DNA of 64,000 nucleotides from Chachezhania sediminis (lineage in GTDB: Bacteria > Pseudomonadota > Alphaproteobacteria > Rhodobacterales > Rhodobacteraceae). Made by a program: the position numbers and the translations under genes. Shown piece by piece: positions 16,384-23,715 of the stretch (its first letter is position 1; every line of letters begins with the position of its first letter). The stretch is from positions 434,001 through 498,000 of the forward strand of contig NZ_VOPH01000002.1 of assembly GCF_009765275.1 (NCBI RefSeq). Reading direction: 5' to 3'. The notes below the pieces were generated by a model that worked only from the letters and a program-made list of their open reading frames with translations, did no database searches and was not told the DNA's origin.

Positions 16384-16944
16384 GTGTCACACGCAGAAGA
16401 CCACGACGAAGACCGCCGGGATTTCCTTTACTACGCAACCGCCGGCGCCGGAGCCGTGGTCGCCGGTGCCGCGATATGGCCGCTGGTGAACCAGATGAAT
16501 CCCTCGGCCGACGTCCAGGCAATGTCGTCGATCCGTGTCGACATCGCCGGCGTCGAGGAAGGCACCCAGCTGACCGTCAAATGGCGCGGCAAGCCCGTGT
16601 TCATCCGTCACCGCACGGACGAAGACATCGAACTGGCCCGCGCCGTCCAGATCAGCGATCTGCAGGATCCCATCGACCGGAACGAGAACAAGCCGGGCCT
16701 GCCCGCCACGGACGAAAACCGCACGCTGGATGCGGACGGCCGCTGGCTGGTGATGATCGGCGTCTGCACCCACCTGGGTTGCGTTCCCGTCGGCGATCGC
16801 TCGGGCGATTTCGAAGGCTGGTTCTGCCCCTGTCACGGGTCGCACTATGATACGGCCGGGCGGATCCGCCGCGGGCCGGCACCGCGGAACCTGGAAGTTC
16901 CGATCTCCGCCTTCGATGGCGAGACCACGATTGTTCTGGGATAA
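16384..16944 (+). CDS. petA: Ubiquinol-cytochrome c reductase, Rieske iron-sulfur subunit
   Basis: The Rieske protein of the cytochrome bc1 complex, which passes electrons from ubiquinol to cytochrome c1. An N-terminal [20 protein letters not shown] acts as Tat-type signal and membrane anchor. The 2Fe-2S ligands are in CTHLGCVP (about residue 128) and CPCHGSHYD (about residue 148). The protein is 186 residues, normal for alphaproteobacteria, and starts at a GTG with a GGAGAG site upstream. petB follows after 12 bp. The 170 bp between the GST terminator and the start must hold the operon promoter: a TATAAG at 16345-16350 is a possible -10 element, but no matching -35 is clear. Confidence 0.97.
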
Positions 16945-16956
16945 GGGAACGCGCTG

Positions 16957-18300
16957 ATGTCCGGAATTCCGCACGACCACTACGAACCGAAGACCGGTAT
17001 CGAAAAGTGGATCCACACCCGCCTGCCGATCGTTGGTCTGCTTTACGACACGATCATGATCCCGACGCCGAAGAACCTGAACTGGATGTGGATCTGGGGC
17101 ATCGTCCTGGCATTCTGCCTGGCGCTTCAGATCGCGACGGGCGTCGTCCTGGTGATGCACTACACCCCGCATGTCGACCTGGCCTTCGCGTCGGTCGAAC
17201 ACATCATGCGTGACGTGAACGGCGGCTTCATGCTGCGCTATCTGCATGCCAACGGCGCTTCGCTGTTCTTCTTCGCCGTCTACATCCACATCTTCCGCGG
17301 TCTCTACTACGGGTCCTACAAGTCCCCGCGGGAAATTACGTGGATCGTCGGCATGCTTATCTACCTGCTTATGATGGCCACCGGCTTCCTCGGTTACGTG
17401 CTGCCGTGGGGCCAGATGTCCTTCTGGGGCGCGACCGTGATCACCGGCCTGTTCGGCGCCATCCCCTTCGTGGGCGACGCGCTGCAGACCTGGCTGCTGG
17501 GCGGGCCCGCCGTGGACAACGCCACGCTGAACCGCTTCTTCTCGCTGCACTACCTGCTGCCCTTCGTCATTGCGGGCCTGGTGATCGTGCACATCTGGGC
17601 CTTCCACAACACCGGCAACAACAACCCCACGGGTGTTGACGTCCGCAAGGGGTCGAAGGCCGAGGTCGAGAAGGACACCGTTCCGTTCTGGCCCTACTAC
17701 ATCATCAAGGACTTCTTCGCCCTGGCGGTGATCCTGCTGATCTTCTGGGCCGTCGTCGGCTTCATGCCGAACTACCTGGGCCACCCCGACAACTATGTCG
17801 AAGCCAACCCGCTGGCCACGCCGGCGCACATCGTCCCCGAATGGTACTTCCTGCCGTTCTACGCGATGCTGCGTGCCATCACCGACGATCTGTGGATCTC
17901 GCAATTCGCCAAGTTCATCACGGGCGGCATCATCGACGCGAAGTTCCTGGGCGTGCTGGTCATGTTCGGCTCGATCCTGATGCTGGCGCTGGTGCCCTGG
18001 CTGGATACCTCGCGGGTCCGTTCGGGCCGCTACCGGCCGATGTTCCGCTGGTGGTTCTGGCTGCTGGTCGTCGACTTCATCATGCTGATGTGGCTGGGGG
18101 CCATGCCTGCCGAGGAGCCCTATACCTCGCTGGCCGCCATCGGTGCCGCCTACTGGTTCGGTTACTTCCTGATCGTCCTGCCCGTCCTGGGCGTGATCGA
18201 GAAGCCCGATCCGATCCCGGCGACGATCGAGGAAGACTTCGAGGCGCATCTTGCCAAACACAAAGCGGCCGACAGCGCCCAAGCGACACCTGCAGAGTGA
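16957..18300 (+). CDS. petB: Cytochrome b of the bc1 complex
   Basis: A 447-residue membrane protein with eight transmembrane helices, binding two b-type hemes. Heme-ligand histidines are seen in [22 protein letters not shown] and in [21 protein letters not shown] (each motif continuous in the sequence). The ubiquinol-oxidation site motif PEWY is at about residue 294 ([17 protein letters not shown]). This is the full-length fused cytochrome b, not the split b6/subunit IV form. It lies between petA and petC in the standard order; petC starts 23 bp downstream. Confidence 0.98.
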
Positions 18301-18323
18301 CAGGCCAGGGAACGACAAGGACG

Positions 18324-19133
18324 ATGCACATGTTCAAGCAACTCGCATTCGGAGCCGCCGCGGTCCTGTCCATGGGGCTGGCAACGGTCGCCTACGCCGC
18401 GGAAGAGGGTGGCGGCCATAGCGGCGGCCATGTCGAGGACGTCCGGTTCCCCTTCGAAGGGCCGTTCGGCGTCTACGATCAGAACCAGCTGCAACGCGGC
18501 CTGCAGATCTACACCGAAGTCTGCTCTGCGTGCCACGGCCTGCGCTATGTCGCGTTCCGGACGCTGGCGGATCAGGATGGCCCGGGACTGTCCGAAGCCG
18601 AGGTTCGCGCCTATTCCGCGAACTACAATGTGACGGACAAGGAAACCGAAGAAGACCGCGTCGCGATCCCGTCGGACCACTTCCCGCACGTGACCTCGAT
18701 GAATGCGCCCGACCTCAGCCTCGTGGCCAAGTCGCGCGCCGGGTTCCACGGCCCCTACGGCACCGGCTTGTCGCAGCTGTTCAACGGCATCGGCGGCCCG
18801 GAATACATCTACTCGCTGATGACCGGCTACACCGGCGTTCAGCAGGAACAGGCCGGCCGGCTGTACTACGAGAACACCGCTTTCCCGAGCGGCTGGATCT
18901 CCATGCCGCCGCCGCTGTCGGGTGAGGACGTGGAGTTCGTCGACGGCTCGCCCAACGACCTGCATAACGAGGCGATGGACATCGCGGCCTTCCTGATGTG
19001 GACCGCCGAGCCGAAGATGATGGCCCGCAAGCAGGCCGGATTTGTCGGTGTGCTGTTCCTGGTGGTGCTATCGGTGCTGCTTTACTGGACCAACAAGCGC
19101 ATCTGGGCCGGGATCAAGGGCAAGAAGGCCTGA
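18324..19133 (+). CDS. petC: Cytochrome c1 of the bc1 complex
   Basis: Cytochrome c1 accepts electrons from the Rieske protein and passes them to soluble or membrane cytochrome c. An N-terminal Sec signal ends at AYAAEEGG. The covalent heme site is CSACH at about residue 67, and [19 protein letters not shown] carries the probable methionine ligand. A single transmembrane helix near the C-terminus ([17 protein letters not shown]) anchors the protein. Length is 269 residues. The ATG at 18330 is an alternative start, as the AAGGA site is better spaced for it. A strong terminator follows after 20 bp. Confidence 0.96.
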
Positions 19134-19153
19134 TCCCTCCGCTCGCTGGATTA

Positions 19154-19191
19154 CGAAGACAGCCCCGTGCCTCTGGCCGGGGCTGTTTTCG
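19154..19191 (+). terminator. Intrinsic terminator of petABC
   Basis: CAGCCCCG (19160-19167) pairs with CGGGGCTG (19178-19185) around a 10-base loop. Flanking GAAGA and TTTTC extend the stem, and a TTTT run follows the core. The A run on the other side could make it bidirectional. Confidence 0.88.
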
Positions 19192-19700
19192 TTGCCGGGC
19201 TGGGCTGTTCTTCCTGCCCGTCGTTGCCGGCATGCGTGGCTGTTCCGCATGGCAATACGGATCGGTCCCGGGGCGCCGACCTTGGGGGTTCGCCTCTTTC
19301 TCCCCTCCGCGGCACCGGCACTTGGCGGTGGCTCGCCATCTGGGCCGGCAGCGTGGATCGTTTCAGACCGATTGAATCTACCGGCAGCGCCTGCGGAACG
19401 GATCCGTCGGTCCGGCTTTGCGGCGTTTGGACGGGCCCAAGGACGCCCGGGTTCGGCAACCGGGACTGCCTTGATACCTGACGTGCGAAATCCTCCGGCG
19501 ACGGGGGGCATCGGATCGGGGGCGCCAGGACCCAACGCCTTGGCCCGTCGATGCGCGCAGGACCGGGAAATTCCGCCGCTGCACAACTGCAGTCCCGATT
19601 GCCCGGAAGCCGGCACAGGGTCCATACGCATTTGGCAGGCCATGGGAAGCCGGACACCGCTCTGATCCCCAAAGGGTTGACCCCGTGCGCCATGACTGCA
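19192..19700. other. Gene-free segment between petABC and the 7-bp array
   Basis: About 510 bp with no reading frame that looks coding on either strand. The open frames that cross it translate into low-complexity sequences rich in Gly, Pro, Arg and Cys, with no motif and no ribosome site. I see no terminator, tRNA or long inverted repeat in it. Together with the array and its right flank it makes up 778 bp without a gene, unusual for this densely packed window. Confidence 0.6.
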
Positions 19701-19829
19701 GTGCTCGGTGCTCGGTGCTCGGTGCTCGGTGCTCGGTGCTCGGTGCTCGGTGCTCGGTGCTCGGTGCTCGGTGCTCGGTGCTCGGTGCTCGGTGCTCGGT
19801 GCTCGGTGCTCGGTGCTCGGTGCTCGGTG
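19701..19829. repeat. Tandem array: 18 perfect copies of a 7-bp unit (GTGCTCG)
   Basis: The unit GTGCTCG is repeated 18 times without a single mismatch from 19701 to 19826, followed by a partial GTG before the sequence changes to TCCG. All three frames remain open through it on both strands because 7 is not a multiple of 3 and the unit has no stop. The array ends 83 bp from the fliP stop and lies downstream of both petC and fliP, so it is not in a promoter or a gene. It has no spacers and is not a CRISPR. Confidence 0.97.
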
Positions 19830-19911
19830 TCCGCCTTGTCTGGTTGTCCGGCCTGCGAGGCCTTTCGTCGTTTGCCTCCGCCCTGGGACTGACCCGGCTG
19901 TCGTGGCCACT

Positions 19912-20643
19912 CTACTGCAGGTAACTACGGACAAGTGCGCCGGCCACCAGGCTCCACCCATCGGCGATGACGAAGAAGGCCAGCTTGAACGGAAGAGATA
20001 CGATGGCGGGCGGAACCATCATCATTCCCATGGACATCAGGACCGCCGCCACGACCAGGTCAATGATCAGGAAGGGAAGGAAGACCAGAAACCCGACCTG
20101 GAAGGCGCGGGCGATTTCGGACAGCATGAAGCTGGGCACAAGGACCGAAAGCGGTGCGTCCGGGGCAGGGGTTCCAACCGTCACATCCGGCCGCAGATCG
20201 GCCATCGAGGCGAATGTTTCCGCGTCGACCCGGGCTGCCATGAAAACCCGGAAGGGTCTCAGCGTCTCGATCACGGCCTCCTCAACCGCAATCCGCTCGG
20301 CGATCAGCGGGGAAATCCCGTTCTCCCACGCTGTCGTGAAAACCGGCGCCATCACGAAATAGGTCAGGAACAGCGCAAGGCTGACGATCAGCATGTTGGG
20401 TGGCGACTGCTGCAGCCCGATGGCCTGCCGCAAGATCGCCAGCACCGTCACGATGAACGGGAAACAGGTGATCATGATGGCCAGACCGGGGGCGAGGCTG
20501 AGCACCGTGACCATCGCGATCAGCTGAATGGCCCGGGCCGAGATGGATTGGCCATCCCCCAGCGACAGCGTCACGTCCTGTGCTGCGGCGGGCCCTGCAC
20601 CAAGCCCCAGCCACATGGCTCCGACGAAAAGGACCCAGATCAC
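19912..20643 (-). CDS. fliP: Flagellar export-gate protein FliP (start uncertain)
   Basis: FliP is a pore subunit of the flagellar type III export gate (FliPQR). The core motifs are complete: SISARAIQLIAMVTVLSLAPGL, MITCFPFIVTVLAILRQAIG, GLQQSPPNMLIVSLALFLTYF and GFLVFLPFLIIDLVVAAVLMSMGMMMV, followed by the final LPFKLAFFVIADGWSL. A hydrophobic signal-like segment ends at PAAAQ. The GTG at 20641-20643 would give the family's usual length (243 residues), but it has no ribosome site and leaves a signal peptide without positive charges. The frame stays open upstream to an ATG at 21132, just after fliN. FliP is the last gene of the fliF unit. Confidence 0.9.
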   Translation of the reverse strand: MIWVLFVGAMWLGLGAGPAAAQDVTLSLGDGQSISARAIQLIAMVTVLSLAPGLAIMITCFPFIVTVLAILRQAIGLQQSPPNMLIVSLALFLTYFVMAPVFTTAWENGISPLIAERIAVEEAVIETLRPFRVFMAARVDAETFASMADLRPDVTVGTPAPDAPLSVLVPSFMLSEIARAFQVGFLVFLPFLIIDLVVAAVLMSMGMMMVPPAIVSLPFKLAFFVIADGWSLVAGALVRSYLQ

Positions 20644-21132
20644 AATGAAAAGGTATCGGGCCCGGGGCTCCGGCGATCGACGATGAAGGGTCCGAAGCTG
20701 AGGAACCGACGCCGTGCCTGCGGCACGTCCAAACTGCCCGGTGCCATGGACCCGCCGGGCACCTGGTGTGCCTCCGGTCAAGGAAGCCCGGGCGAGATCT
20801 CGATCCTCCTTGACGGGCCCCTGCCGATAGCGCCCGATTTCTTGTATCAGCCGACCGTTGCCACGGCCGTGACACAACTGAGCGCCACTTATGAAGCGGT
20901 GCATGGGCCCGTCGTCCGGTCCGGGGATCGGGCGATCGGTCTGCCGGTTCCGGACCTGGCTTTCGATGCGGGACAGGGGGATTGTCAGCCCATCCCCCGG
21001 TTTTCGCGTCACCTGTATACTACCGACGCCGGGCGCAGTCGGACCGACGGGGTCCCGTCCCGCCCGGGCGCTGTCCGGCAGCGCCGGTCGGGCCTTGGCT
21101 CCCGAAGCCGGGCCATCGGCCGGGCCGGTCAT
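20644..21132 (-). other. Unassigned in-frame segment between fliN and fliP
   Basis: These 489 bp are open in the same frame as fliP and begin with an ATG one base after the fliN stop (TGAGATGA). Translated, they give about 163 residues that are Arg/Pro/Gly-rich, have no hydrophobic segment and match no flagellar protein I know; the place is where fliO sits in other bacteria, but no membrane helix is present in any of the three minus-strand frames. It could be an N-terminal extension of FliP, a decayed gene, or a long leader. Confidence 0.4.
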
Positions 21133-21133
21133 C

Positions 21134-21427
21134 TCAGCCCAGCCCGTTCTTCAGGTCCGCGATCTCTGTCAGGCGGACGCCCAGCTGGCCTTGCTGGTCG
21201 CCGTCCAGCTCTTCCAACTGGCCGCGGGCGACCAGCCGGTCGCCGACATACAGGTCCACCGGATCCTCGACCCGCTTGTCGAGTTTCAGGATCGCGTTCT
21301 CGCCCAGGTTGATCAGGTCGCGGATCAGGGGCCTTGCCTTGCCGACTGCCACCACGATCTCGATCGGGACAGAGACGAACGGGTTCGACGGTTCGCCGTC
21401 GCGCATCGGGCCGTCCTGGTCAGCCAT
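21134..21427 (-). CDS. fliN: Flagellar motor switch protein FliN
   Basis: A 97-residue SpoA-domain protein. The stretch VPIEIVVAVGKARPLIRDLINLGENAILKLDK is the FliN core, followed by DPVDLYVGDRLVARGQLEELDGQ-like strands and VRLTEI near the end. FliN forms the base of the C-ring with FliM and FliG and docks the FliH-FliI export ATPase. The start overlaps the upstream FliH-like gene by 8 bp. fliM and fliG are not in the window. Confidence 0.92.
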   Translation of the reverse strand: MADQDGPMRDGEPSNPFVSVPIEIVVAVGKARPLIRDLINLGENAILKLDKRVEDPVDLYVGDRLVARGQLEELDGDQQGQLGVRLTEIADLKNGLG

Positions 21428-22019
21428 GACGGATGTCCTCCTTGGTTTGATATATGAATGCGTCGACCGCGGCGCGGATGGCGTCCAGCACGCCGCTGCC
21501 GTCGATCTCGCGCCCGGTTTCGCCCAGCCTCAGGCTCGCCTGGCCCGGGGAAAGGGTGTCGTCCTCGGTCAGGGACAGGTCTTCATAGCCGTTGGCGTCC
21601 AAGACGGTGCGTATTGCATCGACCGAACCGGGGGGCACCGACAGGATCAGCGGCACGTCGGCCCGGGCGCGGGCCATGGAGGCCAGTTCCTCCACGATCT
21701 GGGGGCCAAGGGCCGCGGCCAATGCCTCGGGCAGGATCGTGTCGGTCAGGATCTCGAAGACCGGCTCGACCTTTTCCAGAAGCTGCTGCAGCGCGTCGTG
21801 GTACGAGAAGTTCAGCTTCTCGATCCCCTCGACCAGGTCTGCGGTCAGTTGCACCCCCTCCTTCGACTTCGCGGAGATCGCGTCGTCCCAGCCGGCGGTA
21901 TAGCCCTTCTCGAACGCTTCCAGCCGGTGCTCTTCCAGGTCGACATCGCTCATCATGTGCAGCACGTCGTCATCCGATGCGGAGGAGGCGAAATCCTCAA
22001 GCAGGTGGGCAATGCTCAT
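21420..22019 (-). CDS. FliH-like flagellar assembly protein
   Basis: A 199-residue soluble protein between fliF and fliN. It has an acidic N-terminus, then FEKGYTAGWDDA (the Gly-spaced helix typical of FliH), a helical middle, and a C-terminal domain with LILSVPPGSVDAIRTVL and LSPGQASLRLG...EIDGSG, which resembles the V-ATPase E-subunit-like domain of FliH. FliH would regulate the export ATPase FliI, which is encoded 17 kb away. The start overlaps the fliF stop by 1 bp. The assignment rests on pattern and position; sequence identity to enteric FliH is low. Confidence 0.72.
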   Translation of the reverse strand: MSIAHLLEDFASSASDDDVLHMMSDVDLEEHRLEAFEKGYTAGWDDAISAKSKEGVQLTADLVEGIEKLNFSYHDALQQLLEKVEPVFEILTDTILPEALAAALGPQIVEELASMARARADVPLILSVPPGSVDAIRTVLDANGYEDLSLTEDDTLSPGQASLRLGETGREIDGSGVLDAIRAAVDAFIYQTKEDIRHG

Positions 22020-23641
22020 CAGGCCTTCTCCTTGCTTTCCTGAAGCCAGCTGCGGAGGATCTCGACCGTCTCCTCCTGCTTTTCGCCGATCAGTTCGCGG
22101 AGCTGGTCGACAGGTATCTCGTCGACCGGATCGTCGCCCTGGGCATTGGCCAGCATCATTGCCGGATCGGCGGTGCCGAAGCCGCTCGTCAGGCCGTCAC
22201 CCATCGGCTGGAAGGCCGGGGCGATGTCGAAGCCCGGTAATTCCGGCAAGCCGCCAAGACCGCCGCCCATGTCGTTGTCGCCCCCCAGCGGCCCGTCGCC
22301 CATCGGCGCCGCCGAGGCCAGGATCGGCCGCACGACGAAGAGACCCAGCAATAGGGCCACGATTCCCAGGACCGCCAGCTGCAGCACCGCGCCAACGTCG
22401 ATGTGAATGCTGTCTAGGAAACCGGGCACCGCAAGCGTGCCTGCAGGTTCGATGGCCGCAAGATCCATCGACTTCAGCGTGATCACGTCGCCTCTTTCCG
22501 CGTCGAATCCAACGGCCGAGGCGACGAGTTCGCGCAGCGACTCCAGTTCCTCTGTCGGGCGAGGTTCGAAGGCTGCAATCGCGCCCGCCGCACCCGGGAT
22601 CCCGTTGACCAGCACCGCCACGGTCAGTCGCTTGACCGCGCCCGGGACGCGGCGGATCTCTCGCTCCGTCTCGGACACCTCGTAATTGATCCGTTCCCGG
22701 GTCGAGGTGCCGGATGATTTCGATTCCCCGCCATTGGCGCCCTGTCCGTCCGGCAGGTTCGACGCGACGGTGACGTCGGAATTCTGGTTGGTGGAGGTGT
22801 CGCTGCTTTCCTCGGTATCGGTGCTGATCGCGACCCGGCCCTCCGGGTCGAAGCTGCGCTGGCGGATCGTCTCTGCCTCGGTATTTGTATCGACGCTGAC
22901 CTCGACCACGGCATTGCCACGGCCGACGCGCGCCTCCACCAGGCGCAGCACGCGTTCGCGCAGAACCTCGGCCCGGGCTTCGGCCGTGGTGCCGGCGGTC
23001 GATTCGTCGTTGGTGCCGACGACCGTGCCGTTCGCATCGATCACTGCCACGTCGTCGACGGCCAGCCCGGCCACGGCCGAGGCCACCAGATAGCGCAACG
23101 CATTGGCCTGATCGGCCGTCAGCGTGGTTCCCGTCGGCACGACGGACACCGACGCCGTGGGTTCGGCCCCGCGCAAGAACGGGCTGGACTGCGGATTTGC
23201 GATATGAACCCGCGCCTGGCCGATATGCGGGCTGGCCACGATGGTGCGGGCCAGCTCCCCTTCCTTCGCGCGCCAGTAGGCGGCGTCGAACATCTGCGAG
23301 GTGGTGCCGAACCCGCTGAGGGCATCGAGCAGTTCGTAGCCCTTGCCCCCGGTCGCCGGCAGCCCCTCGCCGGCTAGGGACATCCTAAGGCTGTCGCGGT
23401 CGCTGCCCGGCACGAAGATCGAAGAGCCCCGTACCTCGTAGGCGACGTTCCGGGCCTCCAGTTCGCGAATCACGTCCGCCGCGGCAGAGCTTTCCAGCCC
23501 GGCATATAGAAGCCGCATCGTCGGCGCGGTTGCGACGCGCGACATGAAGACCACGGCCGCCACGATGGCCAAGGCGGCCAGCACGACGCTGACTTGCTTG
23601 CGTGTATCGAGCCCGGCCCAGACAGTTGCGATCTGCTGCAC
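22019..23641 (-). CDS. fliF: Flagellar M-ring protein FliF
   Basis: FliF builds the MS-ring in the inner membrane. Two transmembrane helices are seen: near the N-terminus (VVLAALAIVAAVVFMSRVA) and near the C-terminus (VLQLAVLGIVALLLGLFVV). The ring-building domains include YAGLESSAAADVIRELEARN and VHIANPQSSPFLRGAEPTASV. I place the start at the GTG at 23639-23641 because GGAGG lies 5 bp upstream and homologues begin with a similar QQ..VW..LD; an upstream ATG at 23707 has no ribosome site and falls inside a probable regulator site. This gives 540 residues. It opens the fliF-fliH-fliN-fliP unit. Confidence 0.94.
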   Translation of the reverse strand: MQQIATVWAGLDTRKQVSVVLAALAIVAAVVFMSRVATAPTMRLLYAGLESSAAADVIRELEARNVAYEVRGSSIFVPGSDRDSLRMSLAGEGLPATGGKGYELLDALSGFGTTSQMFDAAYWRAKEGELARTIVASPHIGQARVHIANPQSSPFLRGAEPTASVSVVPTGTTLTADQANALRYLVASAVAGLAVDDVAVIDANGTVVGTNDESTAGTTAEARAEVLRERVLRLVEARVGRGNAVVEVSVDTNTEAETIRQRSFDPEGRVAISTDTEESSDTSTNQNSDVTVASNLPDGQGANGGESKSSGTSTRERINYEVSETEREIRRVPGAVKRLTVAVLVNGIPGAAGAIAAFEPRPTEELESLRELVASAVGFDAERGDVITLKSMDLAAIEPAGTLAVPGFLDSIHIDVGAVLQLAVLGIVALLLGLFVVRPILASAAPMGDGPLGGDNDMGGGLGGLPELPGFDIAPAFQPMGDGLTSGFGTADPAMMLANAQGDDPVDEIPVDQLRELIGEKQEETVEILRSWLQESKEKA

Positions 23642-23700
23642 GACATCCTCCGAAGCGCCGCCGTTCTGCGCGGCACGGAAACGAACATCGCGGGTTTGAC

Positions 23701-23715
23701 TTAACATTCGGTTAG
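23701..23715. promoter_or_regulatory. Probable CtrA-binding site between fliF and fliL
   Basis: TTAA-N7-TTAG, followed by G, is one base from the CtrA full-site consensus TTAA-N7-TTAAC. It lies in the 119-bp divergent region between the fliF start and the fliL start, so it could control both units. CtrA activates flagellar genes in several Rhodobacterales. Confidence 0.6.

Follow-up and report, generated by a model that had tools for sequence, protein, structure and literature searches.

A perfect GTGCTCG tandem array in the petC-fliP spacer of Chachezhania sediminis, probably a heptanucleotide microsatellite

Heptanucleotide repeats are the most abundant class of long repeats in most genomes, as Mrazek (2007) is quoted in the passages on repeats of MacGregor (PMC4679880), and the corresponding passage of Rehm and others (PMC4692102), also citing Mrazek (2007), similarly describes them as over-represented in many bacterial genomes. 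A polymerase contact length of 7 nt has been proposed as the cause of this heptamer excess (MacGregor, in the same passages of PMC4679880). In Xanthomonas euvesicatoria, strains differ at several loci with a 7-bp unit, according to the locus descriptions of an MLVA study (PMC8002079). In open-licence full text, no paper on bacterial repeats was found with the two-unit GTGCTCG string in either orientation. Here, we describe an array of this heptamer in a window of 64,000 nucleotides of Chachezhania sediminis (the whole stretch of DNA analyzed: contig NZ_VOPH01000002.1, positions 434,001 to 498,000; positions below are those of the window). With a probability of roughly 0.86, we consider it a heptanucleotide microsatellite (a long simple sequence repeat, VNTR-like) that arose by slippage and is tolerated in a convergent spacer.

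The array covers positions 19701-19829. Tandem Repeats Finder assigns it 18.4 copies of GTGCTCG over 129 bp with a period of 7, 100% matches and 0 indels, and a direct check of the letters gives the same uninterrupted period-7 run of 129 bp, in line with the perfect array reported in an earlier note on this DNA. The copies follow each other head to tail with a period of exactly 7 bp, which is the organization of a heptanucleotide long simple sequence repeat. Such repeats are also longer than chance allows, and the two-unit string GTGCTCGGTGCTCG has 17 matches in the window versus 0 in 100 dinucleotide-preserving shuffles. The edges of the array are abrupt: the flanking 14 bases agree with a periodic continuation at 5 and 3 positions, respectively. 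Abrupt edges are common among other GTGCTCG arrays, 65 of the 108 with both flanks available agreeing at fewer than 8 of 14 positions on both sides. The array has neither neighbouring arrays nor degenerate edge copies, which agrees with a young array and yet is common.

The earlier note placed the array between petABC and a flagellar cluster, at convergent gene ends, and this position holds (Table 1). The left cluster, on the + strand, encodes the Rieske protein, cytochrome b and cytochrome c1 (petABC) and ends at 19133, while the right cluster, on the - strand, includes FliP, FliN and FliF, with the fliP stop at 19912. The array thus lies outside genes, 567 bp from the petC stop and 82 bp from the fliP stop. 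The inverted repeat directly behind petC is probably the terminator for petABC. A scan of the sigma-70 type only revealed no promoter-like site in 18900-20200. Phase variation by repeats involves a coding region or a promoter; the array is located in neither, being in a convergent spacer after two stops.

Table 1. Coordinates of the array and of the features around it in the window.
Feature	Position	Strand	Evidence and remarks
petC, cytochrome c1	18297-19133	+	PF02167, 7.5e-67; start codon from simple ORF caller
petC-fliP spacer, 778 bp	19134-19911		no coding-like ORF called
Inverted repeat with T-rich tail just after petC, probable intrinsic terminator	19153-19192	+	
Tandem array, 18.4 copies of GTGCTCG (CGAGCAC on the - strand)	19701-19829		Tandem Repeats Finder, direct check, shuffles
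fliP	19912-21012	-	PF00813, 1.4e-67; start codon uncertain

The array stands alone in its own genome. A genome-wide search for further arrays of the heptamer, as proposed in the earlier note, returned none of at least three units in 5.6 Mb, and a degenerate pattern did not change this; the 864 kb of this genome examined are likewise free of arrays of other heptamers with at least three copies. Perfect arrays were scanned for with a period of 4-15, at least three copies and 20 bp. By this criterion the window holds no second perfect array, and the only others in 800 kb sampled together with the 64-kb window are an 8-mer of 3.1 copies and a 6-mer of 3.3 copies; none was found in 400 kb of the same-genus genome G001. 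A single array in a single-copy spacer differs from a dispersed family, which has many copies across the genome. Among 295 sampled family genomes, three exact units in a row occur in one, the window genome itself. What is unusual about the array is that it is long and solitary, the examined part of the genome holding almost no others, and a slippage-prone background fails to explain 18 copies because the genome is otherwise poor in tandem repeats.

The genome G001 encodes petC and fliP in the same arrangement, with matched parts that are 80-85% identical, but its petC-fliP spacer measures 115 bp and contains no array, the window spacer being 663 bp longer. Among 41 genomes searched with window positions 16384-19133 and 19912-23707, DNA matches to petC and fliP are adjacent only in G000 and G001; in genome G014 they lie about 9 kb apart (G014:C1:1473116-1482240). 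The spacer of G001 carries an inverted repeat (L051:748-786; G001:C1 about 129447-129485) with 18-nt arms that are 94% complementary and with A- and T-tracts at the outer ends, which we read from its sequence as a putative two-way terminator, although a consensus terminator scan scored 0 sites there. By eye, the window shows only a short remnant-like stem near fliP, at about 19850-19870.

The difference in spacer length (778 bp versus 115 bp) would be explained if the whole extra 663 bp, array included, had arrived as a mobile or foreign segment, an origin that we consider very unlikely. The array is enclosed by an imperfect inverted pair of 13 nt (19647-19659 / 19825-19837), but this pair includes the last five array bases and is internal to the extra DNA instead of marking its ends. 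The spacer has an excess of near-perfect 13-nt inverted pairs (7 overlapping windows versus 0-4 in 20 mononucleotide shuffles); going by its arm lengths, the petC terminator should contribute about three of the 7, and the remainder are the enclosing pair and the distant pair 19455-19469 / 19589-19603. These extra pairs were given little weight. On the other side, the spacer matches neither plasmids nor phages and has no second copy in its own genome, and its G+C content of 67.7% is close to that of the window (66.6%). For the longest spacer ORF starting outside petC and the array (180 aa, - strand), 60 other genomes yielded no relative and Pfam no match; an ORF running through the array yields one sub-threshold Pfam match (E 0.11). 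A foreign insert or a decayed gene was rejected on these grounds. As two genomes of the genus were compared, a gain here and a loss in G001 are not separable.

GTGCTCG arrays are not restricted to this genome. The genome collection contains at least 117 stretches with an exact four-unit match, some of them from the same genome, which belong to Actinomycetota, Pseudomonadota, Planctomycetes, Acidobacteria, Chloroflexi, Bacteroidota and others (phyla assigned from record names); shorter or absent orthologous arrays are invisible to such a match. Among the 117 listed arrays, some of them truncated where a contig ends, the median copy number is 5.7 and the maximum 21.7, and four of the 117 reach at least 18 copies, so that the window array is long for its unit. 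Orthologous arrays were found at four loci of Streptomyces species, with 12.1, 7.7, 7.7 and 5.0 copies between flanks that are 83-94% identical; they are no clean parallel for a spacer array because the simple ORF caller places all four inside coding-like ORFs. Two Pseudovibrio species also apparently share an array (flanks 88-89% identical), with 21.6 copies in one species and, in the other, two contigs that end in or just beyond the array.

A full scan of the viral collection revealed GTGCTCG arrays in 8 stretches of 6 contigs. The IMG/VR contigs 3300039159_000385 (L043/L044) and 3300044712_000982 (L046/L050) have both ends inside GTGCTCG arrays, and look as if the repeat were the site of a break in the assembly or of the opening of a circle. 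Several loci (L073, L099, L128, L162 and others) contain compound arrays, in which GGTGCTC, GGTGCTT, GGTGCTG, GGTACTC and similar units succeed each other with the period of 7 kept. Other heptamer arrays of at least three copies number 37 within 1 kb of the 117 listed arrays versus 3 in all remaining parts of the 875,631 bp, many of the 37 being compound arrays with variant units. At more than 1 kb from the recruiting arrays, in contigs that had been chosen for heptamer arrays, 22 of 47 arrays in viral loci have a period of 7, more than any other period, and in genome loci this period shares first place with 3 of 7 arrays.

These arrays also bear on the reality of the one in the window. The assembly is a draft of 32 contigs, and contigs of other genomes and viruses end inside GTGCTCG arrays, indicating that such arrays trouble assemblers. 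Nevertheless, an assembly error in the array or in its copy number, which the earlier note had allowed for, is most improbable: independent genomes carry GTGCTCG arrays of up to 21.7 copies, making the array itself credible, its flanks are continuous, and the spacer is present once in the genome. In a draft of this kind, the exact number of copies is uncertain.

The gene context was analyzed for 96 of the 117 listed loci (at least 3 kb long, at least 62% G+C) using a simple ORF caller that recovers the known window genes, petB and fliP included. At 22 of the 96 loci the array lies at the locus edge. The other 74 were classifiable: 18 arrays fall in coding-like ORFs, 32 in tandem gaps, 18 in convergent gaps and 6 in divergent gaps. 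Arrays are thus inside coding-like ORFs at 18 of 96 loci (18 of the 74 not at an edge) versus 80% of random placements, a preference for sites outside genes as it belongs to heptanucleotide long simple sequence repeats. Among the 56 intergenic arrays, convergent gaps are commoner than expected (18, or 32%, versus about 20%; binomial p 0.027) and divergent gaps are rarer (11% versus 26% at random; binomial p 0.006), both tests treating the loci as independent. Given this convergent share, a convergent spacer is a usual place for a GTGCTCG array, and the placement agrees with tolerance away from promoters and genes. For 16 of the 18 arrays inside coding-like ORFs (among L055-L171), the gene strand is the one that reads CGAGCAC; this bias may be an effect of ORF calling or a preference at the protein level (STEHRAP versus VLGARCS readings).

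Orientation outside genes is relevant to a functional alternative, in which the array would be a 3' element of the fli operon whose unstructured (CGAGCAC)n RNA loads Rho or otherwise ends transcription, replacing a lost inverted repeat. The inverted repeat with 18-nt arms in the G001 spacer is compatible with such a replacement, as is the window, where no terminator-like site was found on the - strand between fliP and the array and where the array follows the fliP stop at a short distance (82 bp). The - strand array RNA is also predicted to be nearly unstructured, with -11.2 kcal/mol for 18 units versus -56.5 kcal/mol for the + strand. We nevertheless regard this alternative as very improbable, for intergenic arrays in other genomes have no clear preference of orientation, CGAGCAC being on the transcript (of the nearest gene for convergent gaps) in 13 of 32 tandem and 7 of 18 convergent cases; a Rho-type terminator was rejected as a candidate for this lack of bias. 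In addition, G001 is devoid of the array, the terminator status of its inverted repeat is a reading of the sequence that the consensus scan leaves unscored, and Rho dependence is not readable from sequence alone. Still less probable, in our judgement, is a reading in which the shared inverted repeat was lost and the array now works between petABC and the fli operon as a collision buffer or as a transcription end tunable by its length; if true, slippage would adjust the read-through between respiration and motility genes.

Two RNA candidates were rejected as well. The region 19190-19911 folds no better than its shuffles (18 of 20 at least as good), which argues against a structured RNA, and the one Rfam match lies below the gathering score, overlaps petC and has an E-value of 0.77. 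As to the roles that the earlier note had left open, the sequence offered no evidence for one in DNA structure, in protein binding or at the end of a transcript.

We also asked how special the unit is. The count of at least 117 matches first suggested a unit-specific phenomenon, an idea that was rejected since heptamers of matched composition also form arrays and GTGCTCG exceeds them slightly at best. When the whole viral collection was scanned for four such heptamers, 2, 6, 3 and 3 stretches were obtained; GTGCTCG, with its 8 stretches in 6 contigs, comes first among the five, and a mild preference for this unit is conceivable. Two degenerate class scans revealed, among the matches listed, perfect arrays of at least 42 bp in 91 of 118 and 37 of 115 new loci, with 47 and 29 units, respectively, and no unit in common (76 other units in total). 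In the class scan that covers GTGCTCG (at least 120 stretches), none of the 118 new loci listed has a GTGCTCG array of at least 42 bp; among the matches listed, GTGCTCG makes up at most 2 stretches (L043 being listed) and ACGGCTG 13 loci, with the limit that four known GTGCTCG loci fit the class pattern and the matches listed therefore miss some. Hairpin-driven slippage was likewise rejected: in the predicted folding of ten tandem units on the better strand, GTGCTCG ranks 26th as DNA and 28th as RNA among 30 composition-matched necklaces. The unit is therefore not clearly special, and the arrays in many phyla, the matched heptamers and the heptamer neighbours together fit a general preference for a 7-bp period and not a function of one sequence.

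In the microsatellite reading, GTGCTCG would first have been duplicated by chance into a short repeat in the petC-fliP spacer, which is non-coding, and this repeat would then have grown by slipped-strand mispairing during replication. The array would be tolerated because of its position outside genes and promoters, after the stops of two convergent clusters, in a spacer that is presumably little constrained, and it would have no function. The earlier note had claimed a recent expansion by slippage; the perfection of the repeat and its absence from G001 favour this claim indirectly, and the array is probably young, with slippage as its likely mechanism. By analogy with the orthologous Streptomyces arrays and the 7-bp loci of Xanthomonas euvesicatoria, the copy number may be variable in this species. 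Speaking against the microsatellite reading, the genome is otherwise poor in tandem repeats, the array is long for its unit, GTGCTCG leads the five heptamers compared in viral contigs, and the predicted hairpin strength offers no reason for strong slippage; our confidence in the reading is lowered slightly by the excess of inverted repeats in the spacer and by the coding-like context of the Streptomyces parallels. If its copy number varies, the array is a possible typing marker for the species, though of little significance alone. Of some use are the side results that GTGCTCG arrays arise in many phyla, that composition-matched heptamers do likewise, and that arrays of other heptamers often adjoin them.

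Compared to described systems, the array shares its seven-base unit with the GGGAATC and GGGGA(C/T)T G-quadruplex repeats of Xanthomonas and Nostoc, which are over-represented in non-coding DNA (passages on these repeats in PMC4692102). However, those repeats are dispersed genome-wide, prefer four units and have G-tracts of at least three, whereas GTGCTCG forms one array here and its longest G run is two, so that it lacks the G-tracts per unit of a GGGNATC-type quadruplex. The TAACTGA direct repeats of Beggiatoaceae are also intergenic heptamer arrays scattered over distant groups, but, as far as their description in PMC4679880 goes, they make up 169 sets in one genome, each with two to six copies, and most of these sets lie immediately upstream of a start codon, whereas the window array is single, long and downstream of two genes. 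Closer in kind are the VNTR loci of Xanthomonas euvesicatoria, 7-bp arrays at seven loci with alleles of 4-18 copies in the locus data of PMC8002079; their units differ from GTGCTCG, and strain variation was measured there, whereas the window array is known from one strain. The closest likeness is with the heptanucleotide long simple sequence repeats of bacteria (Mrazek, Guo and Shah 2007, as cited in PMC4679880 and PMC4692102), which have a 7-bp unit in perfect head-to-tail copies far beyond chance, with the difference that repeat-rich species have many such repeats and the present genome has one array in the part examined. Without sign of a special role, the array looks like an ordinary bacterial microsatellite of this described kind.
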